64,000 bases of DNA, from assembly GCA_934533075.1 (NCBI GenBank), contig CAKTBJ010000001.1, forward strand, positions 1 to 64,000, in the 5' to 3' direction. Both the position numbers and the translations under genes were made by a program. This document shows, in pieces, positions 8,128-52,068 of the stretch. Each line of letters opens with the position of its first letter. Position 1 is the stretch's first letter. The notes under the pieces are model-generated. The model was given only the letters and a program-made list of their open reading frames with translations. It had not been told where the DNA came from and searched no databases. This DNA comes from an uncultured Paracoccus sp. Lineage in GTDB: Bacteria; Pseudomonadota; Alphaproteobacteria; Rhodobacterales; Rhodobacteraceae.

Positions 8128-8130
8128 CCC

Positions 8131-33016: not shown

Positions 33017-33042
33017 TGGCAAGCATTTTATGGGGGATTGCG

Positions 33043-33432: not shown

Positions 33433-33438
33433 GGCGCG

Positions 33439-33479
33439 GGTGCGGGCGTCCCGGCCATCGAGGCCGGCCCGCCCGCACC
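33439..33479 (+). terminator. Long hairpin after the Rid gene
   Basis: An outer stem GGTGCGGGCG (33439-33448) / CGCCCGCACC (33470-33479) encloses an inner stem CCGGCC / GGCCGG with loop ATCGA. The block 33450-33471 is identical over 22 bases to the core of the terminator at 5882-5922 on the other strand. A clear T run is absent. Confidence 0.55.
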
Positions 33480-33562
33480 CCCCGATTGCCGTCTTGTGCG
33501 CCTCGCGCTGCATGCGTAACTAGGCTCTGGTCCACCCGATGGACCCGACAGGAGCCTTCACC

Positions 33563-35703: not shown

Positions 35704-35777
35704 GCCATCCCCTTTCGCTGCCGGATTGGTCGCAGACCCGCGCCCGCCGCGCAAGGCCCCCGCCTGCCCTTACCTTT

Positions 35778-35831
35778 GTCAGAGATCATTGACGAATGTC
35801 GTTCCACTGCCGATAACGGACCAAAGGGAGG
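35778..35831 (+). promoter_or_regulatory. Promoter and 16-bp palindrome of the transketolase/RuBisCO-like operon
   Basis: A good sigma-70 type promoter is visible: TTGACG (35789-35794), 17-base spacer, GATAAC (35812-35817). The -35 box is the right half of a 16-bp imperfect palindrome, GTCAGAGATCATTGAC (35778-35793), four of whose outer pairs and the two central pairs match. The ribosome site AAAGGGAGG is at 35823-35831, so the leader would be only about 13 bases. A similar palindrome sits in the mtnK/importer promoter. Confidence 0.65.
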
Positions 35832-35836
35832 CAGCC

Positions 35837-36757
35837 ATGCGCAACGCCAAATCCACCGAGGAGATCGCCCTTGGCATCCGCCGGCGCGTGTTCGAGCACG
35901 CGATGCGCAACAATGGCGGTTACCTCAGCCAGGCCTGTTCGGCGGCCGAACAGCTGGCCTTCCTGTATAACGAGGCGCTGAATCTCGGCCCGCCCACGCT
36001 GCCGCCGGTCCCGCGCCCCTTCGGCGGCGTGCCCTCGGCCGGCAATCCCGATTACGTCACCGGCGCCGGCTATAACGGCCCCTTCACCCCCGAACACGAC
36101 CGGCTGTTCATCGCCCCGGCCCATTACGCGCTGGTGGCCTATGCCACCCTGATCGAGACCGGCCGCATGGCCCCCGAGGGGCTGGAGATGTTCAATCAGG
36201 ATGGCTCCTCGGTCGAGATGATCGGGGCCGAGCATTCGCCGGGGATGGAGGTGCATAACGGCACCCTCGGCATCGGCCTGTCCACCGGCGCCGGGCTGGC
36301 ATGGGGCCGCAGGCGCAAGGGCGAGACCGGGCAGGTCTGCGTGTTCATGTCCGACGGCGAGGTGCAGGAGGGCCAGACATGGGAGGCCGTGCAGGCCGCC
36401 GCCCATCACGGCATCGACAATCTCTGGGCGCTGATGGACGTGAACCGCCAGCAATGCGACGGGGCGATGGATTCGGTGATGGAGGTGGGCGACATCGCCG
36501 CCAAGCTGCGCGATTTCGGCGCCGTGGTGGTGGAAATCGACGGCCACGACCTGACCGCCCTGCGCCAGGCGCGGGCCGAGCCGCATGAGGGCCGCCCGCT
36601 GATCGTGCTGGCCCATACCTCGCCCTTCCGGGGCATGGCCTATCTGGAACGCCGCTTCCCGCGCCTGCACTATGTCCGCTTCAAGACCGAGGCCGAGCGC
36701 ACCGAGATGAACCACGCCATCGCCGCCGAGCTGGGCATCGCGCCCATCGCCGTCTGA
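35837..36757 (+). CDS. Transketolase-like protein, N-terminal (TPP-binding) subunit
   Basis: First subunit (306 aa) of a two-chain transketolase, carrying the TPP pyrophosphate domain. His96 in IAPAHYALVAY is in the position of the active-site His of transketolases. The TPP/metal motif reads SDGEVQEG (172-179) with Asn203 in DVNRQQ at the usual distance. AAAGGGAGG precedes the ATG; the longer upstream frame is not coding. Split transketolases of this size act in special sugar pathways (for example apulose-4-phosphate transketolase AptAB). Here it is followed 11 bases later by the second subunit and then by a RuBisCO-like gene. The substrate is unknown. Confidence 0.85.
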   Translation: MRNAKSTEEIALGIRRRVFEHAMRNNGGYLSQACSAAEQLAFLYNEALNLGPPTLPPVPRPFGGVPSAGNPDYVTGAGYNGPFTPEHDRLFIAPAHYALVAYATLIETGRMAPEGLEMFNQDGSSVEMIGAEHSPGMEVHNGTLGIGLSTGAGLAWGRRRKGETGQVCVFMSDGEVQEGQTWEAVQAAAHHGIDNLWALMDVNRQQCDGAMDSVMEVGDIAAKLRDFGAVVVEIDGHDLTALRQARAEPHEGRPLIVLAHTSPFRGMAYLERRFPRLHYVRFKTEAERTEMNHAIAAELGIAPIAV

Positions 36758-36768
36758 AAGGCCCCGTC

Positions 36769-37770
36769 ATGGATATGGTCAACCGCCCTTATGCCCGCGC
36801 CTTCGAGGCCCATGCGGTCCGGCACCCGGAGGTGCTTTGCCTTTCGGCCGACCTGACCTCCAGCTGCGAGATCGACGGCTTTCGCGATCGCCATCCCGGC
36901 CAGTTCCTGTCGATGGGCATGGCCGAGCAGAACATGCTGTCCTTTGCCGGCGGGCTGGGTCTGGCGGGCTTTCGCCCCTTCCTGCACAGTTTCGGGGTGT
37001 TCCTGTATCGCCGGCCCTATGACCAGCTGATGGCCTCGATCGCCTATCCGCGGCGCAAGGTGCGGCTGATGGGCTTTCTGCCCGGCGTGACCACCCCCGG
37101 CGGCATGACCCATCAGGCGATCGAGGATATTTCGGTCATGCGGGCCATTCCCAACATGACCGTGCTGGAAACCGGCGACGCGACCGAGGTCGAAGGCATC
37201 GTCGCGGCCGCCGACAGCATCGACGGTCCCGTCTATTGCCGCGTGCTGCGCGGATCGGTGCCGCGCCTGTTCGACACGCCCTTGCGCGTGGGCCAGATGC
37301 GGGTGCTGGCCGAGGGCACGGACGTGCTTGTGATCACATCCGGCATCACCACCGAGGAGGCCATGCGCGCCCGCGCGCCGCTGGAAGCCGCCGGCATGTC
37401 CGTGCGCCACCTGCATCTGCACACGCTGAAACCTTTCGATGCCGCCCAGATCGTCGCCCATGCCGAGGCCGTGCGCTTTGGCGTGATCACATTGGAAAAT
37501 CATGTGATCACAGGCGGCATCGGCTCGATGACCGCCGAGGCGCTGGCCGAGGCAGGCCTGGGCAGGCGCCTGATCCGGCTGGGCTTGCAGGATACCTATG
37601 CGCATGGCGGCTCGCGCCCCTACCTGATGCGCCATTACGGGCTGGACGCGATGGCGCTGATCGGCGCGGTGGAAGGGCTGACCGGCGCCGTTCTGGGCAT
37701 CACCGAGGCCGATCTCGCGGCGGCCCGCGTCGATGCCGTGCATTCGGCGGTGAAGGCCGAGGCGCTTTGA
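36769..37770 (+). CDS. Transketolase-like protein, C-terminal subunit
   Basis: Second subunit (333 aa) with the transketolase pyrimidine-binding and C-terminal domains. Glu53 in SMGMAEQNML is the conserved residue that activates the TPP aminopyrimidine. HSFGVFLYRRPYDQL and PGVTTPGGMTHQAIEDISVMRAIPNM are family blocks, and the C-terminal domain starts near residue 190 (GTDVLVITSG). The stop overlaps the start of the RuBisCO-like gene (TGATG), so the three proteins are made together and probably serve one pathway. Confidence 0.87.
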   Translation: MDMVNRPYARAFEAHAVRHPEVLCLSADLTSSCEIDGFRDRHPGQFLSMGMAEQNMLSFAGGLGLAGFRPFLHSFGVFLYRRPYDQLMASIAYPRRKVRLMGFLPGVTTPGGMTHQAIEDISVMRAIPNMTVLETGDATEVEGIVAAADSIDGPVYCRVLRGSVPRLFDTPLRVGQMRVLAEGTDVLVITSGITTEEAMRARAPLEAAGMSVRHLHLHTLKPFDAAQIVAHAEAVRFGVITLENHVITGGIGSMTAEALAEAGLGRRLIRLGLQDTYAHGGSRPYLMRHYGLDAMALIGAVEGLTGAVLGITEADLAAARVDAVHSAVKAEAL

Positions 37771-38888
37771 TGCGCCTTGCGGTCACCTACCGCATCTTCG
37801 CGCCCTCGCTGGCCGAGGCCCGCGCCCGCGCCGAGGCCATCGCGCTGGAACAGACCGTCGAGGTGCCCCGCGACGTGGTGCCGGAGGGCTTCATCGCCGA
37901 CGAGATCCTCGGCCGCGTCGAGGAGATCGGCACCGAGGCCGAGGGCCGCTTCCGCGCCACCATCAGCTATTCGCCCGACAGCGCCGGTCCCGACCTCGCG
38001 CAGTTGTTCAACGTGATCTTCGGCAACAGCTCGATCCAGCGCGGGCTGCGGGTGGTCGGCATCGACCCCGGCGCGACCATCCTTTCCCGCCATCCGGGGC
38101 CGGGCTTCGGCGTCGAGGGCATCCGCCGCCTGTGCGGCCGCGCCACGGGCGGCATGATCGCCCCGGTGCTGAAGCCGCAGGGGCTGGACACCGATGCGCT
38201 GGCGCGGATCGCCTATCTTTGCGCCCGTGCCGGCGCGGATGTGGTCAAGGAAGACCACGGCATCATGGACCAGCCGATGGCGCCCTTCCGTAAGCGCGTG
38301 GAAAAGACCGCCGCCGCCGTGGCCCGCGCCAATGCGGAAACCGGGGGCAAGGCGCTGTATTTCCCCTCGCTGGCGGGCAGCCCGGACCGGCTGGCGGCGC
38401 ATGCCGCCTTTGCCCGCGATGCCGGCGCCGACGGGCTGCTGGTCATGCCGGGCCTGCTGGGCTTTCCCGCCGTGCGGCTGGTGGCGGGGATGGGCCTGCC
38501 GGTGATGACGCATCCGGCCTTTCTGGGGCCTTACGTGCTGTCGCCGGATACGGGCTTCGATCACGGCGTGCTGTTCGGCACCATGCAGCGCCTCGCCGGG
38601 GCCGATATTTCCGTCTTTCCGAACACCGGCGGCCGTTTCGGCTTCACCCCGGCCGAGTGCCGCCGGATCGCCGATGCCTGCCGCGACCCGGCCGGGCCGG
38701 GCCGCCCCATGCTGCCCAGCCCCGGCGGCGGCATGAGCGTCGGGCGCGCCGCCGACATGGCCGCCATGTATGGTCCGGATGTGGTCTATCTGCTGGGCGG
38801 CTCGCTGCTGCGGCTGGGCGACGACATCGGCGACGGCATCCGCGCCATGCGCCGGGCCATCGGTGCGGTGCAAGCGCAGGACCCTTGA
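37770..38888 (+). CDS. RuBisCO-like protein (form IV)
   Basis: RuBisCO large-subunit homologue of 372 aa. The lysine equivalent to the general base is Lys135 in VLKPQGLD, and the carbamylation lysine equivalent is Lys160 in VVKEDHG. The metal-ligand triad K-x-D-E of true RuBisCO reads K-E-D-H here (His163), and the loop-6 lysine is replaced in PNTGGRFGF (Arg289). The C-terminal phosphate site (LLGGSLLRLGDD) is kept. Carboxylation is therefore not expected; sugar-phosphate isomerase, enolase or decarboxylase activity is likely, as in other RuBisCO-like proteins. With mtnK, mtnA and a DHWC cupin nearby, the best analogue is the Rhodospirillum rubrum 5-methylthioribulose-1-phosphate isomerase. 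The apionate-pathway RuBisCO-like proteins are an alternative. Confidence 0.87.
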   Translation: MRLAVTYRIFAPSLAEARARAEAIALEQTVEVPRDVVPEGFIADEILGRVEEIGTEAEGRFRATISYSPDSAGPDLAQLFNVIFGNSSIQRGLRVVGIDPGATILSRHPGPGFGVEGIRRLCGRATGGMIAPVLKPQGLDTDALARIAYLCARAGADVVKEDHGIMDQPMAPFRKRVEKTAAAVARANAETGGKALYFPSLAGSPDRLAAHAAFARDAGADGLLVMPGLLGFPAVRLVAGMGLPVMTHPAFLGPYVLSPDTGFDHGVLFGTMQRLAGADISVFPNTGGRFGFTPAECRRIADACRDPAGPGRPMLPSPGGGMSVGRAADMAAMYGPDVVYLLGGSLLRLGDDIGDGIRAMRRAIGAVQAQDP

Positions 38889-38942
38889 CCGGACGGGCGG
38901 CCGTGCCGTCCACTGCGCCCGCCCGCACAAGGAGCCGCGAAA

Positions 38943-39555
38943 GTGATGAAACTCCATTCCTTCTGGTCGCCCAATCCGCAGAAGGTGCGCTTTGCGATGG
39001 CCGAGCTTGGCCTGCCCTGCGAGATCGCCGAGGTGGATCTTTTCGCCGGTGCGCAGAAGGCCGATGCCATCCGCGCGCTGAACCCCATGCAGAAGGTGCC
39101 GATTCTGGAAGACGGCGCGGTGGTGTTGTGGGAATCGAACGCCATCCTTTGCTATCTGGGGGACAAGACCGGGTGCCTGTGGCCGGGCGATCCGGCGGCA
39201 CTCGGCCGGGGCGCTGAAATGGCTGTTCCTCGAAAGCCGGCACCTGTCCGAGCCGGCGGGCACCCTGTGGTTCAACGATTCCGTCGCGCCCAAGGCCGGC
39301 AGGCCGGTTGACGAGGATGCGGCGGCGGCCGCGATCAAGGCCCTTGGCCAGCCCCTCGGGGTTCTGGACCGGCATCTCGCGGCCCGGACCTGGATGCTGG
39401 GCGAGGATTTCTCGCTGGTCGATTGCTGCCTCGGCGCGATCCTGGCGGCGCTGGCGGCCAGCCGCTTCGACTGGTCCGGCTATCCGGCCGTCAAAGGCTA
39501 TGTGGACCGCATCCGCACCCGCCCCGCATGGCAGGCGACCGGCCCGCGATACTAG
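38943..39555 (+). pseudogene. Glutathione S-transferase-like gene with a frameshift
   Basis: The thioredoxin-like half is intact in one frame (KLHSFWSPNPQKVRFAMAEL to CYLGDKTGCLWPGDPAA). The helical half continues in the +1 frame from about 39211 (ALKWLFLESRHLSEPAGTLWF to the TAG at 39553-39555, with EDFSLVDCCLGAIL). The break is at the run of four G at 39208-39211; removing one G restores one reading frame of about 203 residues. AAGGAG (38929-38934) is eight bases from a GTG at 38943 and eleven from the ATG at 38946. As given the gene is broken, either truly or through a base-calling error. It follows the RuBisCO-like gene in the same direction. Confidence 0.8.
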
Positions 39556-39562
39556 CGCGCCG

Positions 39563-40195
39563 TTATCGCCGCGCCTCGGTCGCCATGCGCAGGGCAAGGC
39601 CGCCCAGAACCGCCCCCATCAGCCAGCGCTGCACCAGCACCCAGACCGGGCGGCTGGCGAGAAAGCCCGCAATCGTCCCGGCCGCGATGGCAATCGCCGC
39701 ATTCACGCTGACGCTGATCACGATCTGCGCAAAGCCGAGGACCAGCGATTGCGCCAGCACGCTGCCATGCTCGGGGCTGATGAATTGCGGCAGCAGCGAC
39801 AGATACATGACCGCGATCTTGGGATTCAGCAGGTTGGTCAGGAAGCCCATCATGAACAGCCTGCGCGGGCTGTCCTTCGGCAGGTCCCGCAGCTGAAAGG
39901 GCGAGCGCCCGCCCGGCCTCACCGCCTGCCAGGCCAGGTAAAGCAGATAGAGCGCGCCGCCGAACCGCAGCGCGTCATAGGCATAGGGCACGGCCATGAC
40001 GATGGCGGTGATCCCGAAGGCGGCGCAAAGCATGTAGAACACGAAGCCGAGGGCGACGCCGCCCAGCGAGATCAGACCCGCCACGCGGCCCTGGCAGATG
40101 GATCGCGAGATCAGATAGACCATGTTCGGGCCGGGCGTCAGCACCATGCCCAGCGCGATCAGCGCGAATGCGATCAGATTGCCCGTCTCCGGCAT
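39563..40195 (-). CDS. LysE/RhtB-family exporter
   Basis: Inner-membrane exporter (210 aa) with about six hydrophobic segments. The N terminus LIAFALIALGMVLTPGPNMVYLISRSICQGRVAG carries the TPGPN motif of LysE/RhtB proteins. FMMGFLTNLLNPKIAVMYLSLLPQF is the second family block. Members export amino acids or small metabolites. It converges on the broken GST gene with seven bases between the stops. Whether it belongs to the RuBisCO-like locus is unclear. Confidence 0.88.
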   Translation of the reverse strand: MPETGNLIAFALIALGMVLTPGPNMVYLISRSICQGRVAGLISLGGVALGFVFYMLCAAFGITAIVMAVPYAYDALRFGGALYLLYLAWQAVRPGGRSPFQLRDLPKDSPRRLFMMGFLTNLLNPKIAVMYLSLLPQFISPEHGSVLAQSLVLGFAQIVISVSVNAAIAIAAGTIAGFLASRPVWVLVQRWLMGAVLGGLALRMATEARR

Positions 40196-40275
40196 GTCGG
40201 CCCCCGTTCCATCCCTGCCGCGACTGTGCCGGGGCGCCCGCCCGCCGGCAAGCCCCCGTGCCCGGAGGGCGCGGC

Positions 40276-40308
40276 GGTTTCAAGGGGGCTGGATGCCCCC
40301 TTGAAACC
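40276..40308. repeat. Large perfect palindrome, possible extragenic repeat
   Basis: GGTTTCAAGGGGGC (40276-40289) and GCCCCCTTGAAACC (40295-40308) form a 14-bp perfect stem around the loop TGGAT. It lies between the terminator of the ribose-type importer operon and the start of the LysE gene. No second copy was noticed in this window. Confidence 0.55.
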
Positions 40309-40315
40309 GGCCCCC

Positions 40316-40345
40316 CAAAGGAAAGCGGGGACCAGCGGTCCCCGC
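40316..40345 (-). terminator. Terminator of the ribose-type importer operon
   Basis: On the minus strand the perfect stem GCGGGGACC / GGTCCCCGC (40345-40337 and 40333-40325) with a three-base loop is followed by TTTCCTTT (40324-40317). It begins six bases after the stop of the binding-protein gene. Confidence 0.75.
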
Positions 40346-40351
40346 ATGCCA

Positions 40352-41386
40352 TTACCGCGCCGGCAGGGTGATCCAGTCCGGCACCGCCACATCGGCATGG
40401 GCGAAGGCGGGGATCTTCGCGCCCAGCTCCTCCATGCTCTTCACGTCCTGCTCCTCCAGCATGGCCTGGGTGATCAGCGTCGGCGGCACGATCACCGATG
40501 CGCCGGGGTCCTCGCCGGCCAGCAGCATCGCCAGCGCCCGCACCGAGACCTCGCCCACCACCGCCGGGTTGGTCGCCGCCGTCGCCTTCCAGGCGGAACC
40601 GGCCTGCCGCATCTCGGCGATGTCGGCGGTGGAGATATCCGCCGAATAGATGGCGATGTCGCCCGACAGCCCGGCCTCGTCCACGGCGATCTTGGCGCCC
40701 TTGGCGAATTCGTCATAGGGCGCGAAGATGACCTGAATCCCCGGATTGGCCGAGATCACCGACCGCGCCTGATTGGCGACCGAATTGGCGATGGGATTGT
40801 CCAGCGTGCCGAACTGGGCCAACTCCTCGATGCCGGGATTGGCGGCCTTGACCTCGCGCCAGACCTCGTCGCGGCGGTCCAGCGGCGCGATGCCGGGCAC
40901 ATAGACATAGGCCGCCTTGAAGGCATCGCCATTGTCCGCGATGGCCTGCTCCAGCGCCAGCCGGGCGAGGTCGTGGTCCGATTGCTCGATCTGGGGAATG
41001 GCGTCGTTTTCGACATTCACGTCGAAGGCCACCACCTTGATGCCGGCCTCCACCGCCCGCTGCGCCGCGTCGCGCATGGATTCGGTCAGGCCGTGCTGGA
41101 TGATGATCCCGTCCACGCCCATCGCGATGGCCTGGTCGACCATATCCGCCTGCAAGGCCGCGTCCTGCCGGCTGTCCAGCACCCGCAGATCGACGCCCAG
41201 CGCCGCCGCCTGCGCCTCCACCCCGGACAGGTAGGCCTGAAAGAAGTCGCCCGTGGACAGATAGCGCACCAGCGCGATCCTGACCGCGCCGGGATCGTCG
41301 AAGGGCGCCGGCGCCTGGGCCAGCGCCAGACCCGGCAGCAGCGCCGCCGCCCCCATCAGGCCCGCGAAGATCCGTCTTGAAATCAT
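40352..41386 (-). CDS. Ribose-type ABC importer, substrate-binding protein
   Basis: Periplasmic binding protein (344 aa) of the Peripla_BP_4 (RbsB-like) family used by CUT2 importers. The signal peptide has an MISRR start and ends near ALAQA (residue 24). The mature part begins VRIALVRYLSTGDFFQAYLSGVEAQAAALG, and the second block reads MGVDGIIIQHGLTESMRDAAQRAVEAGIKVVAFD. GGGAGG is eight bases before the ATG at 41386 but only two before the in-frame ATG at 41392, so the inner start is chosen. Its neighbours mtnK and mtnA suggest that the ligand is 5-methylthioribose or another 5-deoxypentose; this is inference. Confidence 0.85.
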   Translation of the reverse strand: MISRRIFAGLMGAAALLPGLALAQAPAPFDDPGAVRIALVRYLSTGDFFQAYLSGVEAQAAALGVDLRVLDSRQDAALQADMVDQAIAMGVDGIIIQHGLTESMRDAAQRAVEAGIKVVAFDVNVENDAIPQIEQSDHDLARLALEQAIADNGDAFKAAYVYVPGIAPLDRRDEVWREVKAANPGIEELAQFGTLDNPIANSVANQARSVISANPGIQVIFAPYDEFAKGAKIAVDEAGLSGDIAIYSADISTADIAEMRQAGSAWKATAATNPAVVGEVSVRALAMLLAGEDPGASVIVPPTLITQAMLEEQDVKSMEELGAKIPAFAHADVAVPDWITLPAR

Positions 41387-41403
41387 GGTCATAGCCTCCC
41401 GTT

Positions 41404-42393
41404 TTATCCCCGGCTGCGGTTCGACAGCGCGAAAGTGAACACCAGCGCGACGACCAGCACCGCGCCCTTGACGAAATCCTGCGTATAGTAAGGCGCGTTC
41501 ATCATGGTCAGCCCCTGCATCAGGATGCCCAGGAACAGCGCCCCCATCGCGGTGCCGAAGGCATTCGGCTTGGACGCCCCCAGCACCGCAAAGCCGATCA
41601 GCGCGGCGGCCACGGAATCCAGCAGCAGGTTGTTGCCGGACGCCACATCCCCCCGCCCCAGCCGCGCCGCCAGCAATATGCCGCCCACCGAGGCCAGCAC
41701 GCCCGAGATCATATAGGCCGCCACCTTGTAGCGATCCACATTGGCCCCCGCCAAACCGGCCGCCCGCGCGTTCGAGCCGATGGCATACATCATCCGCCCG
41801 TGGCGCGTGGTCTCCAGAAACAGCCAGACGGCCACGGCGATGACGATCAGGAACACCACCGACAGCGGCACCAGCCCGCCGATGCGAAACCGGCCCAGCA
41901 TCAGGAAGGCCTCGGAAAACTGGCCCTGCGCCACCGCCCCGCCCGGCAGCGTCATCCCCGACGAGATCGAGCGCCCCTCCGTCGGGATGCGCTGGATGCC
42001 CAGCAGCAGGAACATCATCCCCAGCGTGGCCAGCAGGTCGGGCACCTTCATGCGCACGATCAGCAGCCCGTTGACCAGCCCGACGCCGGCGCCCATCAGC
42101 AGGCACAGCACCACGGCCCAGAAGGCGCCCATCTCCCACACGACCATGACATAGGCCGACAGCATCAGCGCCGAGGTCGCCACCGCGCCGATGGACAGGT
42201 CGAACCCGCCCACGACCAGCGTGCAGGTCACGCCCAGCGCCAGAATCCCGGTGATGGCGACCGAGGACAGGATCAGCACCGCCGAGGTCGGCGACAGGAA
42301 ATTGTTCGCGCCGAGGCTGAAGAACACCGCCAGCCCGGCCAGCAGCACCAGAAAGCCGTAGCGGATCGCCAGATCGCGGGTGGTTCGCTGCAT
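41404..42393 (-). CDS. Ribose-type ABC importer, permease
   Basis: CUT2 permease (329 aa) of the RbsC type with eight to ten hydrophobic segments. GVTCTLVVGGFDLSIGAVATSALMLSAYV is the family signature near residue 55, and AIGSNARAAGLAGANVDRYKVAAYMISGVLASVGGILLAAR the coupling region. The gene begins directly after the ATPase stop codon and is followed after 17 bases by the binding protein. Confidence 0.9.
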   Translation of the reverse strand: MQRTTRDLAIRYGFLVLLAGLAVFFSLGANNFLSPTSAVLILSSVAITGILALGVTCTLVVGGFDLSIGAVATSALMLSAYVMVVWEMGAFWAVVLCLLMGAGVGLVNGLLIVRMKVPDLLATLGMMFLLLGIQRIPTEGRSISSGMTLPGGAVAQGQFSEAFLMLGRFRIGGLVPLSVVFLIVIAVAVWLFLETTRHGRMMYAIGSNARAAGLAGANVDRYKVAAYMISGVLASVGGILLAARLGRGDVASGNNLLLDSVAAALIGFAVLGASKPNAFGTAMGALFLGILMQGLTMMNAPYYTQDFVKGAVLVVALVFTFALSNRSRG

Positions 42394-43911
42394 TCAGATC
42401 CCCCTTGCCGCCGGATGCGCGTCCACCACCTGCGCCATCACCGCCGCCATGTCGATGTTTTCATTGCGATGGCTGCCGGTGATGGCATGCTCGCTCATCA
42501 CCAGGATGCGGTCGGCGACCTCGCGGGCCTCGTCCAGTTCGGTGACGAAGACGATGGTGGCGCGGGTGTCGGCGGTGGCGCGGATGCGGGCGCCGATGTC
42601 GCGCCGCGCCTTGATGTCCACGCCCTGGAACGGCTCGTCCAGCAGCAGCAGGCGCGAGGCCTGCGCCATCCAGCGCGCCACCATCACCTTCTGCTGGTTG
42701 CCCCCCGATAGGGTCAGGATGCCGTCGCCCTCGGACTGGCAGACCACGCCCATCTCCGAAATCATCCGCCGGGCGGTGGCGCGCTCGGCCCTCCGGCGCA
42801 TGAAGCCGGTGCGGGCGTGGCGGGTCAGGAAGGGCAGCGTGATGTTGCGGGTCAGGTCGAAATCCGCGATCACCGCGTTCCGGCGGCGGTCCTTGGGGCA
42901 GAGGAACACCCCGGCGCGGATCGCCTCGGCCGGGCTGCGGGGCGCATAGGCGCGGCCGTCCAGCGCCATATCACCCGCGACGGGCGGCGCCAGCCCGAAC
43001 AGGGCCGAGGCCAAGGCCGACTTGCCCGACCCCACCAGCCCGGTGATGGCGATGACCTCGCGCGCATGCGCCACAAGGTCGAATTCCCGCGCCCCCTCGC
43101 GCAGGACGATGTTCCTCAATGCCAGCACCGGCGCGCCCGGCGCGGGGATCGCCACCTGCGCCTCGCCCAGCTCCTGCCCCAGCATGGCGGAAACGGCGCC
43201 TGCGTAATCCAGCGCCCCCTCGAACCGCCCGACGATCAGCCCGTCGCGCATCGACAGGATGCGGTCGGCCAGCCGGCGGATGTCGGACATGCGGTGCGAG
43301 ATATACAGCACCGCCACCCCGCGCGCCTTCAACGCCTCGACCAGCCGGAACAGCCGCTCGGCCTCGACCGCCGACAGCGAGCTGGTCGGCTCGTCCAGGA
43401 TCAGCAGCCGGGGCGCATGGGCCATCGCGCGGGCGATGGCGACAAGCTGGCGGTCGGCCAGCGACAGGTCCGCGACCTGCCGCCCCATGTCCAGATCGAG
43501 ACCGATGGAGGCGGCGATCTCGCGCGCCCGCGCCCTCAGGCCGCGCCGGTCGATGAACAGCCGCCCCCCGGCGGCGAGGCTGTCCAGCATCAGGTTCGAG
43601 GCCACATCGAGGTCGGGCACCACCCCGTCGTCGATGTTCTGATGCACGGTGACGATGCCGGCGCGCAGGGCCTCGGACGGGCCGGCGGGGGTGAAGGGAC
43701 GACCCTCCAGCATGACCGCGCCGGCATCGGGGGCATGGACGCCGCACAACACCTTGACCAGCGTGGACTTTCCGGCGCCGTTCGCACCCATCAGCACCGT
43801 GACCTGTCCGGCCGGAATCGCCAGATCGACGCCGCGCAGCACCTGGTTGCGGCCAAAGGCCTTGCGCAGGCCGGTCACGCGGATCGCTGCCTGGCTGTCC
43901 CCTGTCGTCAC
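42394..43911 (-). CDS. Ribose-type ABC importer, double-domain ATPase
   Basis: ATPase (505 aa) with two ABC domains, RbsA/XylG type. The first domain has Walker [10 protein letters not shown] and Walker [13 protein letters not shown]. The second has the degenerate P-loop [11 protein letters not shown], signature LSGGNQQK and [12 protein letters not shown]. The first signature reads LSLADRQL. The start is a GTG at 43911 (N terminus [19 protein letters not shown]) with GGGAGG six bases upstream; the frame before it has no ribosome site. It is the first gene of its operon and divergent from mtnK across a shared operator-like region. Confidence 0.88.
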
Positions 43912-43956
43912 GTCCTGCCTCCCTTGTCGGGGAAGGCTGGGGTGGCGGGTTTCAAA

Positions 43957-43974
43957 AGTCAATCCGGTTTGACA
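43957..43974. promoter_or_regulatory. Divergent promoter with palindromic operator between importer and mtnK
   Basis: GTCAATCCGGTTTGAC (43958-43973) is a 16-bp palindrome with one mismatched pair. Its right half contains a perfect -35 box, TTGACA (43969-43974), pointing to mtnK; its left half gives TTGACT (43962-43957) pointing to the importer operon. Neither direction has a good -10 box at 17 bases. A protein bound here would contact both promoters at once. A similar 16-bp palindrome is at 35778-35793. Confidence 0.65.
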
Positions 43975-44023
43975 AACGCCATGAAACTGGAAATCCTTGC
44001 CCTGAACGGGACGGAGGGGGACC

Positions 44024-45277
44024 ATGCCGCAGACCGCTTATGCGCCGCTGACACCGGAGAGCCTGCCGGCGCGGCTGGGCGCGGTGGCCCCGCTGCGCCG
44101 CGCCCTGGGCGACCCCGAAAGCTGGCAGGTGCGCGAGGTGGGCGACGGCAACCTGAACCTGGTGTTCATCGTCGAAGGCGCGGCCGGCAGCCTGATCGTC
44201 AAGCAGGCGCTGCCCTATGTGCGGCTGGTGGGCGACAGCTGGCCCTTGCCGCTGTCGCGCAGCTTTTACGAATACCACGCCCTGACGCGGCAGGCGGCGC
44301 GCGACCCCGGCCGGATGCCGGAGGTGCTGCATTTCGACGCGGATCAGGCGCTGATCGCGATGGAATACCTGCACCCGCATGTGATCCTGCGCCATTCGCT
44401 GATGGCGGGCGTGCGGCATGGCGGTCTGGGCGAGGCGCTGGGGCGGTTCTGCGCGCGCACGGCGTTCCTCGGTTCCGATCTGGCGATGGACACGGCGCAG
44501 CGCAAGGCCGATCTTGCGCTGTTCGCGGGCAATGTCGCCCTGTGCGACATCACCGAAAACCTCGTGTTTTCCGATCCCTATTTCGACGCGGCCATGAACC
44601 GCTTTACCCCGGCGCTGGCGCCGCTGGTGGCGCGGCTGCGCGCCGATCAGGACCTGAAGATCGCCGCCCAGCACATGAAGCTGGCCTTTGCCAACCATGC
44701 CGAGACGCTGCTGCATGGCGACCTGCATACCGGCTCGGTCATGGTGGCGGGCGACGATTGCCGGGTGATCGACCCGGAATTCGCCACCTATGGCCCCTTC
44801 GGCTTCGACGTGGGCATGCTGATCGCCAATTTCCTGATGGCCTTCCTTGCCCAGCCCGGCCACGGCGCCGACCGCGCCTATGGCGGTTGGGTGCTGGGCG
44901 TGGCCGAAACCGTCTGGGAGGTCTTCGCGGCCGAGTTCACGCATCTGTGGCGCACGGCCCGCACCGGCATCCTGTATCAATCCACCCTGTTCGAGGATCA
45001 AGGCGACTGGCAGGCCGCCGAACTGGCCCGGATCGAGCGGCTGGACGCCATCTGGCGCGATGCCCTTGGCTTTTGCGGGGTCGAGATGCATCGTCGCATC
45101 CTCGGGCTGGCCCATATCGCCGAGTTCGACCGCATCGGAGACGAGGCCCTGCGCGCGGCCTGCGAGGCCCGCGCGCTGGTTCTGGGCCGGGCGCTGGCGG
45201 TCGGGCGCAACCGGATCAACACGATGGGGCAGGTGCTGGACCTGGCCCGCGCGACGGCGGAAAGGGATTGCCTGTGA
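44024..45277 (+). CDS. mtnK: 5-Methylthioribose kinase
   Basis: ATP-dependent sugar kinase (417 aa) of the APH fold that phosphorylates 5-methylthioribose at C1. Visible are GDGNLNLVF (40-48), the nucleotide lysine in [12 protein letters not shown] (Lys60), the catalytic loop HGDLHTGS (231-238) and [15 protein letters not shown] (250-264), all typical of MtnK. GGAGG precedes the ATG. Its stop overlaps the mtnA start (GTGA). Related kinases act on 5-deoxyribose, so the true substrate may be either sugar. The divergent ribose-type importer suggests that the sugar comes from outside. Confidence 0.88.
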
Positions 45278-46374
45278 AGATCGACGGGACACATTACCGC
45301 TCCATCTGGCGCGAGCGGTCGGGGGCGGTCAGGGTGATCGACCAAAGATGGCTGCCGCATGAGCTGCGCATCGTCACGCTGGCCAGCCTCGACGATTTCG
45401 CCGCCGCCATTCGCGACATGTGGGTGCGCGGCGCGCCGCTGATCGGGGCGACGGCGGCCTATGGGGTGGCGGTGCAGATGGCGGCGGATGCCTCGGACGC
45501 CTCGCTGGATGCCGCCTATGCGCGCCTGCACGAAACCCGGCCCACGGCGATCAACCTCCGATGGGCGCTGGATTCCATGCGCGCCACGCTGGCGCCGCTG
45601 CCGCCCGCCGCCCGGCCCGCCGCCGCCATGTCCCGCGCGGCGGCGATCTGCGACGAGGATGTCGAGATCAACCGCGCCATCGGCCGCCACGGTCTGGGCC
45701 TGATCCGCGACATCAGCCTCGCCAAGCGCGGCGCCCCGGTCAATGTGCTGACCCATTGCAATGCCGGCTGGCTGGCGACGGTGGACTGGGGCACCGCCAC
45801 CTCGCCCATCTATCACGCCACGGAGGCCGGGATCGCGGTGCAGGTCTTCGTGGACGAGACCCGCCCCCGCAACCAGGGCGCCCAGCTGACCGCGTGGGAG
45901 CTGAACCACCACGGCGTGCCGCATCATCTGATCGTGGACAATGCCGGCGGCCACCTGATGCAGCATGGCGAGGTCGATCTGGTCATCGTCGGCACCGACC
46001 GCACCACCGCGCGCGGCGACGTGTGCAACAAGATCGGCACCTATCTGAAGGCGCTGGCGGCGCGGGCGAACGGGGTGCCCTTCTATGTGGCGCTGCCCTC
46101 GCCCACCATCGACTGGACGGTCCGGGACGGGCTGCGCGAGATCCCCATCGAGGAGCGCGGCGGCGCCGAGGTCACCCATGTGCAGGGCCGCGACGCCTCG
46201 GGCGCCACGGTGTCGGTGCAGATTTCGCCGGACGGCACCCCGGCCCGCAACCCGGCCTTCGACGTGACCCCGGCGGAGCTGGTCACCGGCCTGATCACCG
46301 AGCGCGGCATCTGCCCCGCCACGCCCGAGGGTCTGGCCGGGCTGTTCCCCGATCTGGCGCCTAGTCCACGATGA
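45274..46374 (+). CDS. mtnA: Methylthioribose-1-phosphate isomerase
   Basis: Converts 5-methylthioribose 1-phosphate to 5-methylthioribulose 1-phosphate. The length (366 aa) and motifs fit Mtn[14 protein letters not shown] (52-64), the catalytic Cys162 in [11 protein letters not shown] and Asp242 in [18 protein letters not shown]. The start is a GTG coupled to the mtnK stop. The last 14 bases overlap, on the other strand, the end of the cupin gene. MtnA is related to the ribose-1,5-bisphosphate isomerase that feeds archaeal RuBisCO, which makes its presence beside a RuBisCO-like gene notable. Confidence 0.92.
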
Positions 46375-46693
46375 ACAGGCGCGCCCCGGTCGCCGTCGAG
46401 GACCGATGTGCCGCATCGCCGAAATCGGAAACCTGATAGCTCATCCCCGCCGTCAGGGTGAAACGGCGGCCGTCGCGCAGCTCGGTCTCCAGCACGCCGT
46501 CGAGGACGTAAAGGATATGGCCCCGGTCGCACCAGTGATCGGCCAGATAGCCGGGCGTGTATTCCACCTGCCGGATGCGGATGTCGCCCAGCTCCAGTGT
46601 GCGCCACAGGGCCTTGCCGGTCACGCCGGGATGCTCGGTCGGGGCGATTTGCGACCAGTCGGTGGCGGTGAAGGGCAGGTCGGGGATCTTCAT
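46361..46693 (-). CDS. Small cupin with DHWC motif
   Basis: Single-domain cupin of 110 aa. The motif DHWCDRGH (residues 52-59) supplies His and a lone cysteine, Cys55, and a second cupin His may be His96 in FGDAAHR. It matches the DHCW-motif cupins. In R. rubrum a cupin (1-methylthioxylulose 5-phosphate methylsulfurylase) uses an active-site Cys to remove the methylthio group and form 1-deoxyxylulose 5-phosphate, directly after the RuBisCO-like isomerase. The equivalent role is likely here because mtnK, mtnA and a RuBisCO-like gene are all close; it is not proved. It is coupled to the SorC regulator (ATGA). Confidence 0.75.
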
Positions 46694-47661
46694 GGGCTTT
46701 CCTCCAGCAGGGCCTCGGCCACCGACAGCGCGGTGACCAGATGGGTGACATAGCCACCCCGTATCGCCGCCCGCGTCGCCGCCACCTTGTCGAGGCCCCC
46801 CGTCACCAGAATCCCCATCGGCAGGCCGACAAGCTGGTCGAGGGCGACGCCGATCATCCGCGGCTCCAGCGGGCCGTCGATGGCGCGGCCCTCGGCGTCG
46901 ATGAAATGGCCGCACAGCACGCCTTCGGCGCCCTGGGCGACATACCAGGCCATGTCCTCGGGCGTGGCGAGGCCGCTGACGACGATATGGCTGTCCTTCT
47001 GGCAGGTGCCCACGGCGAACAGCCACTTGTTCACGCTGGCCAGCCGGGCAAGCTGGGCGCGGATCAGCGGCTCGGCCCGCAGCGCGTCGGCCAGCCGGGC
47101 CGAGCTGAGGATCGCCGGGGCATGCAGGTTGTGGCATTCCGCGCCCAGCCGCTGGGCAAGGCGGGTGCTGCATGCCTCGGCGGTGAAGCCGTAGGGCGTC
47201 GCCATCGAGCCGATCAGTTGCAGCACCTGCACGTCCTCGATGCGGTGCTCGCCGAGGGCGCCGGTCAGCTCGTAGATGGTGCGGCCCCAGGCGACGCCCA
47301 GCCGGTCGCCCGGCGCCACCAGCTCCGGTAGCCAGTCCGCCGCGCCCTGCACCACGCGAAAGAACCGGGACGACCCGCCGTCGCCCTCGTCCGGGACTAC
47401 GAAGGCGGCCTTCAGCCCGTATTTCGCGCACAGGTCGCGGGCCAGCCGGTGGGTGGTAAAAGCGTCTGAATTCAGGGTGATGCGGATAAGGCCGCGTTCC
47501 CGCGCGGCTTGCAGGTAATTGACCACCGTGGCGCGGGACAGGCCCAGCCGCGCGGCGATGTCCTTCTGGTTCAGCCCCTCCTGATAATACAGCCAGGCGA
47601 CTTCGATCACGACATTCTCGCCGCTGACCCGGCCGGGGATTCGGCGTCTGTTCGGCGGCAT
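46690..47661 (-). CDS. SorC/DeoR-type sugar-binding transcription regulator
   Basis: Regulator (323 aa) with an N-terminal helix-turn-helix (EGLNQKDIAARLGLSRATVVNYLQAARERGLI, residues 28-59) and a C-terminal SorC sugar-phosphate-binding domain (GDRLGVAWGRTIYEL; AVGTCQKDSHIV; GGLDKVAATRAAIRGGYVTHLVT). Such proteins sense a phosphorylated sugar, here probably a ketose phosphate of the pathway. The longer upstream frame is a shadow of the divergent gene. It is divergent from the aldolase/dehydrogenase gene and probably controls several promoters of the locus. Confidence 0.88.
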   Translation of the reverse strand: MPPNRRRIPGRVSGENVVIEVAWLYYQEGLNQKDIAARLGLSRATVVNYLQAARERGLIRITLNSDAFTTHRLARDLCAKYGLKAAFVVPDEGDGGSSRFFRVVQGAADWLPELVAPGDRLGVAWGRTIYELTGALGEHRIEDVQVLQLIGSMATPYGFTAEACSTRLAQRLGAECHNLHAPAILSSARLADALRAEPLIRAQLARLASVNKWLFAVGTCQKDSHIVVSGLATPEDMAWYVAQGAEGVLCGHFIDAEGRAIDGPLEPRMIGVALDQLVGLPMGILVTGGLDKVAATRAAIRGGYVTHLVTALSVAEALLEESP

Positions 47662-47679
47662 GGCGGGTCCGTTATCTCT

Positions 47680-47722
47680 ATGACAGGGCAGGATTACTTT
47701 TGTATAAGCGGCGCAGGTAATC
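47680..47722 (+). promoter_or_regulatory. Promoter and inverted repeat of the aldolase/dehydrogenase gene
   Basis: ATGACA (47680-47685), 17-base spacer, TATAAG (47703-47708) is the best sigma-70 match in the window (five of six in each box). The inverted repeat GATTAC (47692-47697) / GTAATC (47717-47722) brackets the -10 box and start point. It is a candidate site for the divergent SorC regulator. Confidence 0.65.
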
Positions 47723-47737
47723 AAGCGGGGGACAGGC

Positions 47738-49420
47738 ATGGGCGACGGGCTGGGCGAAGGCATGCCGGCGGCGCTGCGGGCGGCGACGGCCTCGGCCAGG
47801 GGGCAGGTGCGCAACGCGCTGGGCGATGCGGTCGCGGTGCTGCATATCGCCGGCGGCACGGCGGCGCCGGTGGTGCTGCGGCTGGCGGATCTGCAACGGG
47901 CGCGGCCCGGCGCGGATGCGGCGGCGGTGCTGCGGCAAAGCCTGATCGAGGGCGATGCCGCGCCCGACCTGGCCTTCCTGCATGCGGCGCTGCCGGCGGA
48001 ATGCGCGATCTCCGGCGCGGCGCCGGCGCTGCTGGCGCTGGCCTCGCTGGCCGAGCCAGGGCCGGTGCTGGACGCGATCTTCGCCGGCGCGGTCGTGGCC
48101 TTGCCGCGTGCCGAGGGGATCGGGCTGGCCGAGGCCGCGCGGGCCGCCCTGGCCGCCCATCCGCAGGCGGAGGGATTCCTGTTGGCCGGGCAAGGGCATG
48201 TGACCTGGGGCGCCGATGCCGCCGCCGCGCATGCGAGGCTGCGGGCGCAGGAGGCGCTGGCCGAGGACTGGCTTGCCGCCCGCCGCACCGCGCCCCCGCC
48301 CGCCGCGCCGGTGCCGACAGACATGCGGGCCGAGGCGATGCTGGCCCTGCGCCGGGCTTTCGGTGCCCCGGTTCTGGCCTGCCGGACCTCTGATTTCATT
48401 GCCGGTTTCATGGCGCGGCCCGATCTGGCCGTGCTGGCGGCACGCGCGCCGGGCGTGGCGCTGGCGGATGCGCCGCAGCCCGGTGCGCGGGTGATCTGGG
48501 CGCCGGGGCTGGGGCTGGTCGGCATCGGCGCGGATGCGGCGCAGGCCGACATGAGCGCCGATCTGGGCGCCGGGATGCTGGCGGTGATCCGCGATGCGGA
48601 AGCGGCCGGCGGCTGGCTGCCCCATGCCCTTCCCGAAACCCCGGCGCCGGCGCCAAAACCCTTTACCGGCCGGATCGCGCTGATCACCGGCGGCGCCGGC
48701 GCCATCGGTCTGGCCACGGCGCAGGCCTTCGCCGCGCAGGGCGCCGCGATCTTCCTCGTGGACCGGGACGAAACCGCGCTGGAGGCGGCCCTTGCGACGC
48801 TCGGTCCCCATCATGCCGGCCTCGCCTGCGACATCACGGCCCCAGGCGCCCCGGCCGAGGCCGTCGCCGCCTGCGCGGCGCGGTTCGGCGGGCTGGACAT
48901 CCTGATCTCGAATGCCGGCGCGGCCATGCAGGGCGACATCGCCACCCTGCCCGACGCCACCCTGCGCGCCAGCTTCGAGTTGAATTTCTTTGCCCATCTG
49001 GCCTTCGCGCAGGCCGCCACCGCCACCTTCCGCGCGCAGGGCCGGGCGGGGCAGATGCTGTTCAACGTCTCGAAGCAGGCGGTCAATCCGGGCAAGGGCT
49101 TTGGCGCCTATGGCATTCCCAAGGCCGCCACCTTCTTCCTGCTGCGGCAACTGGCGCTGGAACTGGGACCGGAGGGGGTGCGCGTGAACGGCATCAATGC
49201 CGACCGCATCCGCTCGGGCCTGCTGACGCCCGAGATGATCGCCACCCGCGCCAGGGCGCGCGGCGTCACCGAGGCCGATTACCTAGGCGGCAACCTGCTG
49301 CGGCGCGAGGTCGAGGCCCGCCATGTCGCCGAGGCCTTCGTGGCGCTGGCGCTGGCCGAGCGCACGACCGGCCATGTGATGACCGTGGATGGCGGCAATA
49401 TCGAGGCGGCCTTGCGCTGA
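47738..49420 (+). CDS. Class II aldolase-like / short-chain dehydrogenase fusion
   Basis: Two-domain protein (560 aa). The N-terminal 180 residues follow the class II aldolase/adducin fold of bifunctional rhamnulose-phosphate aldolase/dehydrogenases. The zinc ligands are missing: the HxHPD position reads SGAAPA (92-97) and the later HG(L)FTWG reads GQGHVTWG (151-158). The C-terminal dehydrogenase is complete: TGGAGAIG (317-324), SNAG (391-394), Ser445 and YGIPK (458-462). Thus the dehydrogenase is probably active and the aldolase half probably not. In related pathways an aldolase splits 5-deoxyribulose or methylthioribulose phosphate and a dehydrogenase reduces the aldehyde. GGGGGACAGG precedes the ATG. 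Confidence 0.82.
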   Translation: MGDGLGEGMPAALRAATASARGQVRNALGDAVAVLHIAGGTAAPVVLRLADLQRARPGADAAAVLRQSLIEGDAAPDLAFLHAALPAECAISGAAPALLALASLAEPGPVLDAIFAGAVVALPRAEGIGLAEAARAALAAHPQAEGFLLAGQGHVTWGADAAAAHARLRAQEALAEDWLAARRTAPPPAAPVPTDMRAEAMLALRRAFGAPVLACRTSDFIAGFMARPDLAVLAARAPGVALADAPQPGARVIWAPGLGLVGIGADAAQADMSADLGAGMLAVIRDAEAAGGWLPHALPETPAPAPKPFTGRIALITGGAGAIGLATAQAFAAQGAAIFLVDRDETALEAALATLGPHHAGLACDITAPGAPAEAVAACAARFGGLDILISNAGAAMQGDIATLPDATLRASFELNFFAHLAFAQAATATFRAQGRAGQMLFNVSKQAVNPGKGFGAYGIPKAATFFLLRQLALELGPEGVRVNGINADRIRSGLLTPEMIATRARARGVTEADYLGGNLLRREVEARHVAEAFVALALAERTTGHVMTVDGGNIEAALR

Positions 49421-49426
49421 AGCATG

Positions 49427-49462
49427 TTCGGCAAAGGCGGATACCGCCTCTGCGTCCGAAAG
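49427..49462. terminator. Hairpin between converging aldolase/dehydrogenase and queG genes
   Basis: AGGCGG (49435-49440) / CCGCCT (49444-49449) with loop ATA is extended outward by TTCGG (49427-49431) / CCGAA (49458-49462). It lies in the 59-base gap between converging genes and may stop transcription from both sides. Confidence 0.45.
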
Positions 49463-49479
49463 TGCACCAGAACAAGGAA

Positions 49480-50550
49480 CTACGGCAGCCGCGCCAGCGC
49501 CCAGCGGGCGGCGTCGGCCACGGCGGGGTCGGGATCCTCCGCCAGCCCCGCCGCCACCGGCCGCAGCCGCGCCAGACCGCTGTTGCCGATGGCGTAAAGC
49601 ACGTTGCGCACAAAGCTGCCCCTGCCGATCCGCTTCACCGGGCTGCCCGAAAACCGCGCCCGGAATGCCGCATCGTCCAGCAAGGCCAGCTCCGCCAGAT
49701 CGGGCGGCGGGCCGCTGTCCAGATAGCGCATCTCGGTCGCCTCGCGGGCGAACTTGTTCCACGGGCAGACGGCCAGGCAATCGTCGCAGCCATAGATGCG
49801 GTTGCCCAGCGCGGGGCGCAGCGCCTCGGCCACCGCGCCTTTGTATTCGATGGTCAGGTAGGAGATGCAGCGCCGCGCATCCAGCTGGAACGGCGCCACG
49901 AAGGCCTTGGTCGGGCAGATGTCGAGGCAGGCGGTGCAGCTTCCGCAATGCTCGGTCTCGGGCGCGTCGGGGGGCAGCGGCATGGTGGTGAAGATCGCGC
50001 CCAGAAAGAACCAGTTGCCCAGACGCCGCGACAGCACCACCGAATGCTTGCCCTGCCAGCCCAGCCCGGCGGCCTCGGCCAGCGGCTTTTCCATCACCGG
50101 CGCCGTGTCGACGAACACCTTGATCTGATGGTCGGCAGGTCCGGCCTCCAGCAGCCAGCGACCCACGCGCTTGAGGCGCTTCTTGACCAGATCGTGATAG
50201 TCGCGGCCATGCGCATAGACGCTGATCGCCCCCTTGTCGGGCCGGTCCAGCACCGCCAGCGGGTCGTGCAGGGGGGTATAAGGCTCGGCCAGCATGATGA
50301 CGGATCGCGCCTCGGGCCACAGCGCGGCCGGATCGCCGCGCCAATGGGTGCGCTCGGCCATCCAGCCCATGTCGCCGTGGCGGCCATCGGACAGGAATGC
50401 GTCCAGCCGCCCCGCCGCCTGCGGGATCGCGTCGGGGGTGGTGATGCGCGCCTCGGCAAAGCCCTCGGCCAGCGCCTGCGCCACCAGCCGGTCCTTCAGC
50501 CCCGCCCAGTCCTCAGCGGTCGGGGAGGCCTCAGAAGTCGAGCTGCGCAT
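49480..50550 (-). CDS. queG: Epoxyqueuosine reductase
   Basis: Cobalamin- and iron-sulfur-dependent enzyme (356 aa) for the last step of queuosine synthesis in tRNA. The catalytic Asp148 lies in [26 protein letters not shown]. Two 4Fe-4S clusters are evident: [12 protein letters not shown] (202-213) and CDDCLAVCP (255-263). A short HEAT-like tail follows. The ATG at 50550 lies inside the end of the upstream GST gene (20-base overlap); a further-upstream start is in frame but less likely. Confidence 0.92.
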
Positions 50551-51208: not shown

Positions 51209-51287
51209 GATTCAAGCCTGTCTTGCGCAAATCCGCCCCGGTGATACGCGCCCCCGGCGCGCGGGGCAACCGGCACGGGCGCGCGGA

Positions 51288-51989: not shown

Positions 51990-52068
51990 GCCGGGCAGGT
52001 GTCACGGCGGCCCGCGCCCGGTCAAGCCGCACCGGCGCCCGGAAAGGGCCGGCAGGGGGCTTTCGCCC

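Follow-up and report, generated by a model that had tools for sequence, protein, structure and literature searches.

The closest described relatives of the system considered here are two. In the 5'-methylthioadenosine (MTA)-isoprenoid shunt of Rhodospirillum rubrum and Rhodopseudomonas palustris, MtnA is followed by a RuBisCO-like protein (RLP) of the DeepYkr type, which converts 5-methylthioribulose 1-phosphate to 1-methylthioxylulose 5-phosphate and 1-methylthioribulose 5-phosphate in a 3:1 ratio, and the gene of the R. palustris methylsulfurylase (CupA below) adjoins that of the RLP by locus number (RPA2169/RPA2170; PMC5893883). The dihydroxyacetone phosphate (DHAP) shunt, or 5-deoxyribose salvage, is described as using MtnK or MtnP, MtnA and a class II aldolase, with a transporter in some clusters (PMC6079011, PMC12632272). 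Here we describe a locus at 35.8-49.4 kb of a 64,000-nucleotide stretch of DNA from an uncultured Paracoccus sp. (the whole stretch is referred to as the window), which shares MtnA, a DeepYkr-type RLP and the same predicted intermediate with the first system, and MtnK, MtnA and the same predicted two-carbon fragment with the second, yet in which no CupA was found and a split transketolase stands in its place beside the RLP.

The three genes at the core of the locus lie on the + strand: TKN (35837..36757, 306 aa; PF00456, E 1e-16), the thiamine-diphosphate-binding half of a split transketolase, TKC (36769..37770, 333 aa; PF02779 and PF02780), its pyrimidine/C-terminal half, and the DeepYkr-type RLP (37770..38888, 372 aa; PF00016, best Protein Data Bank (PDB) match 3qfw), the start of which overlaps the TKC stop codon at 37770. 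RLP relatives were sought in one genome per species with an alignment of 19 close relatives as the query, which gave 258 coding stretches, and the gene content of the best 80 was surveyed by tblastn, the queries being proteins from the window and from its relatives. TKC was present in 77 of the 80 loci and directly adjoined the RLP in all 77, TKN was present in 74, MtnA in 63, a SorC-type regulator (>35% identity) in 60, MtnK and the importer binding protein in 58 each and an aldolase/dehydrogenase fusion in at least 50, counts of outlying genes being lower bounds as 25 of the 80 stretches were shorter than 20 kb. A FucU-type mutarotase occurred in 19 loci, which we count in favour of the reading given below, a purine-nucleoside phosphorylase in six and a molybdoenzyme in five. 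The three loci with no transketolase beside the RLP (L040, L048 and L050) had TKC at ~77% identity elsewhere in the genome, and a genome-wide search returned a TKC match in 25 of 25 genomes or records. In an even sample of 295 genomes of one family, the RLP was found in 19 and TKC in 25 (24 at >=74% identity, one at 53%), 18 genomes had both, and in all 18 the two were adjacent (hypergeometric P ~1e-22 for the overlap, kinship ignored).

The TKN-TKC-RLP cluster is a conserved system, and the linkage of the RLP with the transketolase can be stated with high confidence. The transketolase is the most constant partner of RLPs of the window's type, not an accessory, and it occupies the place held by the cupin beside shunt-type RLPs. 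Related RLPs were found mostly in Rhodobacterales and Hyphomicrobiales, and the cluster also lies on Shinella and Ensifer plasmids. The trio is carried in addition by two metagenome-assembled genomes, one labelled Myxococcales (L082) and one unassigned (L083), where either horizontal transfer or mis-binning could account for it.

The remaining parts of the locus are as follows. On the - strand lie a periplasmic sugar-binding protein (40352..41392, 346 aa; PF13407, E 2e-33), a ribose-type ATP-binding cassette (ABC) permease (41404..42393, 329 aa; NCBIfam ribose-type permease matches under equivalog cut-offs) and a sugar-type ABC double ATPase (42394..43911, 505 aa; AraG/RbsA-type matches, likewise under equivalog cut-offs). 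On the + strand follow MtnK of the 5-methylthioribose kinase family (44024..45277, 417 aa; TIGR01767 459 bits, cut-off 275; PDB relatives 2pyw and 2olc), and MtnA of the 5-methylthioribose-1-phosphate isomerase family (45274..46374, 366 aa; TIGR00512 425 bits, cut-off 279; PDB relatives 1t9k, 6a34 and 2yrf), the two genes overlapping. A small DHCW-motif cupin (46361..46693, -; NF038084 'DHCW motif cupin', 170 bits, cut-off 70) overlaps a SorC/DeoR-type sugar-responsive regulator (46690..47661, -, 323 aa; PF04198, E 3e-54), and a relative of the aldolase/short-chain dehydrogenase fusion ends the locus (47738..49420, +, 560 aa; Pfam recognised the dehydrogenase half alone, the rest by alignment with intact relatives). 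Curated family cut-offs were passed by MtnK, MtnA and the DHCW cupin; the RLP, the importer parts and the regulator matched family models under their cut-offs throughout. An earlier note, made from the letters of this stretch, had named these components, and they lie where it placed them; for the aldolase half of the fusion the correction given below applies. The grouping exceeds chance, since the same genes co-occur in dozens of genomes.

The genes fall into two sets that are also found apart. The first, the supplier of 5-substituted ribulose 1-phosphate, consists of the importer, MtnK or a nucleoside phosphorylase, MtnA and often the aldolase fusion; importer-MtnK-MtnA groups lacking the transketolase and RLP were found on plasmids of Sinorhizobium (L120) and Shinella (L005), fetched as 18-20 kb. 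In the former, from Sinorhizobium meliloti, neither RLP-transketolase nor aldolase fusion was found in 20 kb, and the importer, MtnK and MtnA have the thiamine genes thiO and thiE in their vicinity, as well as a gene for an efflux pump of the purine-nucleoside-exporter type. The second set is the transketolase without RLP, in 11 fetched loci, none of which carried MtnA or MtnK (the genomes of L107-L109 do hold an RLP, at another locus, and contig ends shorten L110, L112, L114 and L115). Six of the 11 carry a molybdoenzyme, and in L006, L109, L111 and L114 a molybdoenzyme stands with an FGGY xylulokinase-type kinase, a zinc dehydrogenase and an AraD-like epimerase, enzymes that would suit the making of a xylulose 5-phosphate derivative from another precursor, so that a second enzyme set may lead to this intermediate too, starting from a pentitol or pentulose that carries a sulfoxide. 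The RLP is found where both sets meet, which is the pattern expected if it turns the product of MtnA into a substrate of the transketolase, and such a bridge is plausible because the known product of DeepYkr-type RLPs resembles xylulose 5-phosphate, a ketose that transketolase cleaves.

We therefore consider, on the strength of the adjacency of TKC and RLP in 77 of 80 loci and of the position of the RLP between the MtnA/MtnK and transketolase sets, that the locus probably encodes a catabolic or salvage system for 5-substituted riboses, the core of which is a RuBisCO-like isomerase together with a split transketolase. The ABC importer would take up a 5-X-ribose (5-methylthioribose or 5-deoxyribose), MtnK would phosphorylate it to 5-X-ribose 1-phosphate (a few relatives would instead obtain this from the nucleoside by means of a nucleoside phosphorylase), MtnA would yield 5-X-ribulose 1-phosphate and the RLP, by a carbonyl shift (1,3-isomerisation), 1-X-xylulose 5-phosphate. 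The split transketolase would then cleave this product between C2 and C3 to give glyceraldehyde 3-phosphate and an X-CH2-CO unit, to be released as X-CH2-CHO or handed to an acceptor, and the dehydrogenase half of the fusion protein could work on the aldehyde. The RLP and transketolase together would thus do the job of the class II aldolase of the DHAP shunt, with the same two-carbon fragment and with glyceraldehyde 3-phosphate in the place of DHAP. The activities of MtnK, MtnA and the RLP are those established for related enzymes and are expected here by analogy; that the transketolase acts on the RLP product we hold with moderate confidence, and the exact fate of the two-carbon unit with low confidence. 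Read as a whole, and a little less firmly, the evidence tips towards an undescribed, oxygen-independent route for MTA, 5-methylthioribose and 5-deoxyribose, in which the RLP would supply a xylulose 5-phosphate substituted at C1, and a thiamine enzyme of two chains, dedicated to this substrate and taking the place of the cupin, would yield from it glyceraldehyde 3-phosphate and a two-carbon fragment, or methanethiol and an acetyl unit if the methylthio group leaves. The earlier note had likewise proposed that import, MtnK and MtnA feed the RuBisCO-like isomerase by a route unlike the described shunt, with which the 80-locus survey and the RLP tree are consistent; it had also placed the importer and transketolase outside that shunt and suggested a variant or a new pathway, and it understated the part of the transketolase, the neighbour of the RLP almost throughout.

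For the RLP itself, the predicted function is that of a 5-X-ribulose-1-phosphate 1,3-isomerase. Of 385 genomes sampled across the class, 20 gave a match to the RLP family, three of them distant and 17 at E <= 1e-85, which were taken as DeepYkr type; among these 17, three were transketolase-linked (one being the centre genome), 13 had a CupA-type cupin directly beside the RLP and one stopped at a contig end, so that 13 of the 14 that are not transketolase-linked adjoin such a cupin and the cupin-linked kind is the commoner across the class. A maximum-likelihood tree of 104 RLPs placed the cupin-linked ones, together with L095 (the one that stops at a contig end), on one branch with a long stem (100/100), and the remaining rows, except for three distant RLPs, had a transketolase beside the RLP or elsewhere in the genome; the tree lacks resolution at its base, several of its branches are long, the transketolase-linked set is perhaps paraphyletic, and the tree was built without the R. 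rubrum and R. palustris RLPs that have been characterised. The window RLP shares 35-41% identity with the 13 cupin-linked RLPs, which stand on another branch, 38 and 42% with L088 and L089, the transketolase-linked RLPs farthest removed, and 26-28% with the distant RLPs L104-L106. Sixty alignment positions are fixed in both groups, including K135, K160, D162 and H163, which we take to be catalytic-type RuBisCO residues. These common residues and the grouping in the tree with cupin-linked RLPs agree with a DeepYkr-type 1,3-isomerase, and the chemistry of the RLP is probably the same in both groups. RLPs of the apionate pathway (OiaX type) share the RuBisCO-like fold and a part in carbohydrate catabolism; the window RLP scores 80.6 bits against the OiaX cut-off of 700, and an apionate-type RLP was rejected on this score. 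The earlier note had counted a grouping of the RLP with apionate decarboxylases, or a separation of the genes in relatives, against its own reading; the OiaX score and the distance from L104-L106 speak against the former, and in the neighbourhood survey the genes stay together.

The split transketolase is two-chain by sequence, as is that of Carboxydothermus (6yaj/6yak), with 6yak, the N chain of a split transketolase, as the nearest solved relative of TKN and 6yaj as that of TKC. Compared with these, and counting near-full-length rows, four positions are altered in every aligned row: His to Tyr29 and His to Ile129 in TKN (89 of 89 rows, the alignment at Tyr29 falling in a weak stretch of 5.6 bits), and His to Leu104 and Asp to Gly111 in TKC (96 of 96 rows, one from a duplicate genome). 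Glu53 and His115 of TKC and His96 of TKN are kept. By the roles of E. coli transketolase residues (H26, H100, H461, D469 and H473 among those considered), the altered positions belong to the substrate site, so that residues conserved there in ordinary transketolases are changed in TKN and TKC, which differ from the Carboxydothermus enzyme also in their linkage to the RLP. Both halves score under transketolase family cut-offs; these models are full-length and out of reach for a half, and the low scores were dropped as a sign of an odd transketolase. The apulose-4-phosphate and sulfoquinovose transketolases are other split transketolases that act on unusual ketoses.

Several observations weigh against the reading of the RLP as supplier of the transketolase. 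The same four altered positions are carried by L116, a transketolase of 52% identity without an RLP. They mark a wider transketolase subfamily and are no proof of substrate; since L116 shares them, they do not point to the RLP product, and their value as proof of a C1-modified substrate is weakened. L116 (genome G422) has for neighbours a SorC-type regulator, an FGGY kinase and genes of a sugar importer, and it possibly belongs to another sugar pathway, and a kinship of TKN-TKC to such another sugar transketolase is possible. The transketolase and molybdoenzyme also serve some RLP-free pathway, and, conversely, genome G630 has the RLP and importer and no TKC at E <= 1e-90. Just three of the 17 class-wide DeepYkr-type RLPs are transketolase-linked, the centre genome among them, and the best 80 of the 258 stretches came from a close-relative query and are uninformative on the share of the whole clade. 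At ten RLP positions, including V256/R and H265/gap, each group is fixed but the two do not agree, so the substrate or product of the RLP may differ between them. Among the recurrent neighbours, looked through by eye with no dedicated search, there was no common gene for the two-carbon product or for methanethiol. Finally, an intact aldolase fusion is often present too (the 50 of 80 loci above being those with the fusion), and the two branches may have different jobs.

This last point leads to the alternative that survives best, namely that a DHAP shunt is at work, taking 5-deoxyribose or 5-methylthioribose through MtnK, MtnA and the fused class II aldolase, with RLP and transketolase as a side branch with another duty. 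Trios of MtnK, MtnA and aldolase form the known 5-deoxyribose route (PMC6079011, PMC12632272), and the family scores of MtnK and MtnA in the window agree with that route. The fusion relatives, apart from 23 stretches ending at the edge of the fetched DNA, keep both aldolase motifs (GGGNTS; DHTH or DYTH) in 30 of 31 testable cases, L011 keeping one. In the window, however, the aldolase half (to ~48475) aligns with its intact relatives in one open frame and lacks GGGNTS, DHTH and NHG, while the dehydrogenase half keeps YxxxK. The histidines of the class II aldolase motifs are zinc ligands, and the window's half appears, on paper, to be degenerate and not a working aldolase, so the fusion that the earlier note named stands as an open reading frame and for its dehydrogenase half, and its aldolase half does not. 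A separate aldolase gene may lie in the genome outside the window. Decay of the aldolase half alone could be explained because the dehydrogenase half would keep its X-CH2-CHO substrate if the RLP and transketolase make it. In addition, Ensifer canadensis L121 carries importer-MtnK-MtnA-TKN-TKC-RLP with no aldolase fusion within 20 kb, and TKC-RLP pairs are more frequent than the fusion (77 against 50 of 80 loci, the latter a lower bound with 25 stretches under 20 kb). We regard this DHAP-shunt alternative as unlikely, and assign cleavage to the RLP and transketolase, with glyceraldehyde 3-phosphate and not DHAP as the expected product.

A second alternative keeps the same route and changes the last step, with the transketolase acting as a lyase with elimination, so that 1-methylthioxylulose 5-phosphate would give glyceraldehyde 3-phosphate, methanethiol and an acetyl unit. 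Sulfoacetaldehyde acetyltransferase and phosphoketolase use a thiamine mechanism with loss of a leaving group, and the methylthio group, adjacent to the carbon that thiamine binds, would be one as well. Almost none of the related genomes searched has CupA, which releases methanethiol in the shunt (see below), and the Asp and His that we take to bind hydroxyl and phosphate in ordinary transketolases are replaced here. Set against this, the same replacements occur in the RLP-free L116, and no acetyl-phosphate-handling gene was recognised among the recurrent neighbours, again by eye with no dedicated search. Elimination at this step seems to us rather improbable, and ketol cleavage as set out above is preferred.

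More improbable still is that the cluster is an MTA-isoprenoid shunt of the R. rubrum type, in which a cupin methylsulfurylase would lead to 1-deoxyxylulose 5-phosphate and the transketolase would be a mere accessory. It has in its favour the kinship of the window RLP to shunt-type RLPs in the tree, the presence of MtnA (TIGR00512, 425 bits against 279) and the small cupin of the window, which the earlier note had taken for the methylsulfurylase. As the R. palustris methylsulfurylase gene neighbours its RLP (RPA2169/RPA2170), we took RLP-adjacent cupins to be CupA and searched with an alignment of 11 of the 13 such cupins. CupA was found in one of 46 genomes with an RLP of the window's type, that of Roseiarcus, a match that is also the sole sign of sensitivity within the search. 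The DHCW cupin of the window showed no relation to CupA (probability 0.2%) and no PDB match at E <= 1, it occurred in none of the 80 related loci by tblastn, and its family was found in two of 42 related genomes, there on contigs other than that of the cluster. The cupin step of the earlier reading falls, because the window cupin shows no relation to CupA and its family is rare in relatives; the DHCW cupin was rejected as a member of the system. That the cupin step is missing can be said, for the window and the related genomes, with high confidence, and, with cupin-linked RLPs on a separate branch and a free sugar predicted to be imported and phosphorylated by MtnK, the cluster is not the known shunt. 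The idea that the transketolase uses 5-deoxyribose or its derivatives as an acceptor, and not the RLP product as a donor, draws on a promiscuous Synechococcus transketolase described as making 7-deoxysedoheptulose from 5-deoxyribose (PMC8102628), and is the most improbable of all, as it needs no RLP, although TKC and RLP adjoin in nearly every locus, and as the 11 RLP-less transketolase loci lack MtnK and MtnA.

Under the favoured route through RLP and transketolase, X is most likely a methylthio group and possibly H. MtnK and MtnA of E. coli accept both methylthio and 5-deoxy sugars (PMC12632272). A sulfur substrate is favoured because a molybdoenzyme of the S/N-oxide reductase type stands near the transketolase (five of 80 loci) and its presumed target exists, MTA sulfoxide being on a list of metabolites for which supernatants of cultured human cells were analysed (PMC2219991). 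Such molybdoenzymes lie near the split transketolase, with or without RLP, in L003 (9716-11992), L006 (Marinovum algicola, 6646-8916), L061, L064, L071, L072, L076, L109 and L111-L114. In L003 (Ponticoccus alexandrii) the gene order is purine-nucleoside phosphorylase, amidohydrolase, MtnA, molybdoenzyme, TKN, TKC, RLP; the amidohydrolase resembles 5'-deoxyadenosine and MTA deaminases, under their cut-offs. The best family match of the L003 molybdoenzyme is the BisC-type S/N-oxide reductase family (901 bits, under the cut-off of 1017.55). Among solved structures it stands nearest to dimethyl sulfoxide (DMSO) reductase (1eu1), and at the positions aligned with Tyr114, Trp116 and Ser147, functional residues of that enzyme, it has the same amino acids.

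Other outlets for MTA were sought in 42 related genomes. MTA phosphorylase (MtnP) was found in 26 of these, acireductone dioxygenase in none (controls were positive in Bacillus subtilis and Synechococcus elongatus) and CupA in Roseiarcus only (G708, one of the 26), so that in the 25 other MTA-phosphorylase genomes neither acireductone dioxygenase nor CupA was found. In those 25, the outlets that remain are RLP-transketolase, the intact aldolase fusion, excretion, a stand-alone aldolase or some other. Canonical methionine salvage was rejected, with acireductone dioxygenase in 0 of 42 genomes and the window RLP under the cut-offs of both MtnW models (159.8 bits against 409, and 114.3 against 513.6).

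Between the RLP and the importer, the window holds a glutathione S-transferase (GST)-like gene split over two reading frames (38946-39556, +), with a GST N-terminal domain in the first frame, and a LysE-type gene named by eye (39563-40195, -); neither was found in the 86 related loci tallied. An Rfam scan of window positions 33000-52000 gave no match. Clustering runs (87 stretches, and 29 chosen loci) showed no common gene beyond those named, families being named by eye and no search being aimed at phosphotransacetylase, methanethiol enzymes or a separate aldolase. Of the occasional neighbours, a homocysteine S-methyltransferase-like gene (by eye) lies in L071 (15236-16213) and L076 (7039-7950), some kb from a TKN-TKC-RLP-molybdoenzyme cluster, L005, L043 and L067 have a Cys/Met-metabolism pyridoxal-phosphate enzyme nearby, and L006, L061 and L111 a sulfatase-like gene, all three kinds too rare to use. 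Look-alikes of dihydroxyacetone-kinase-type subunits, also named by eye, were seen in L021 (17957-18967), L034 (7913-8524) and a few more loci, recurring in five and four clustered loci.

In the open-access literature, judged mainly by titles and the openings of abstracts, we found no description of the RLP-transketolase pairing. The locus is a real, widespread variant of RLP-based 5-deoxypentose salvage for which no published description was found there, and it places relatives of the shunt RLPs in another context, without CupA, the signature enzyme of the shunt. The proposed substrates are riboses bearing sulfur or lacking an oxygen, leftovers of the use of S-adenosylmethionine. If the transketolase does consume the product of the RLP, MTA and 5'-deoxyadenosine, both widespread by-products, would have one more fate, soils and the sea would possibly have one more source of organic sulfur compounds, and the pathway would offer a ready test case for the recruitment of a RuBisCO-like isomerase into new pathways.

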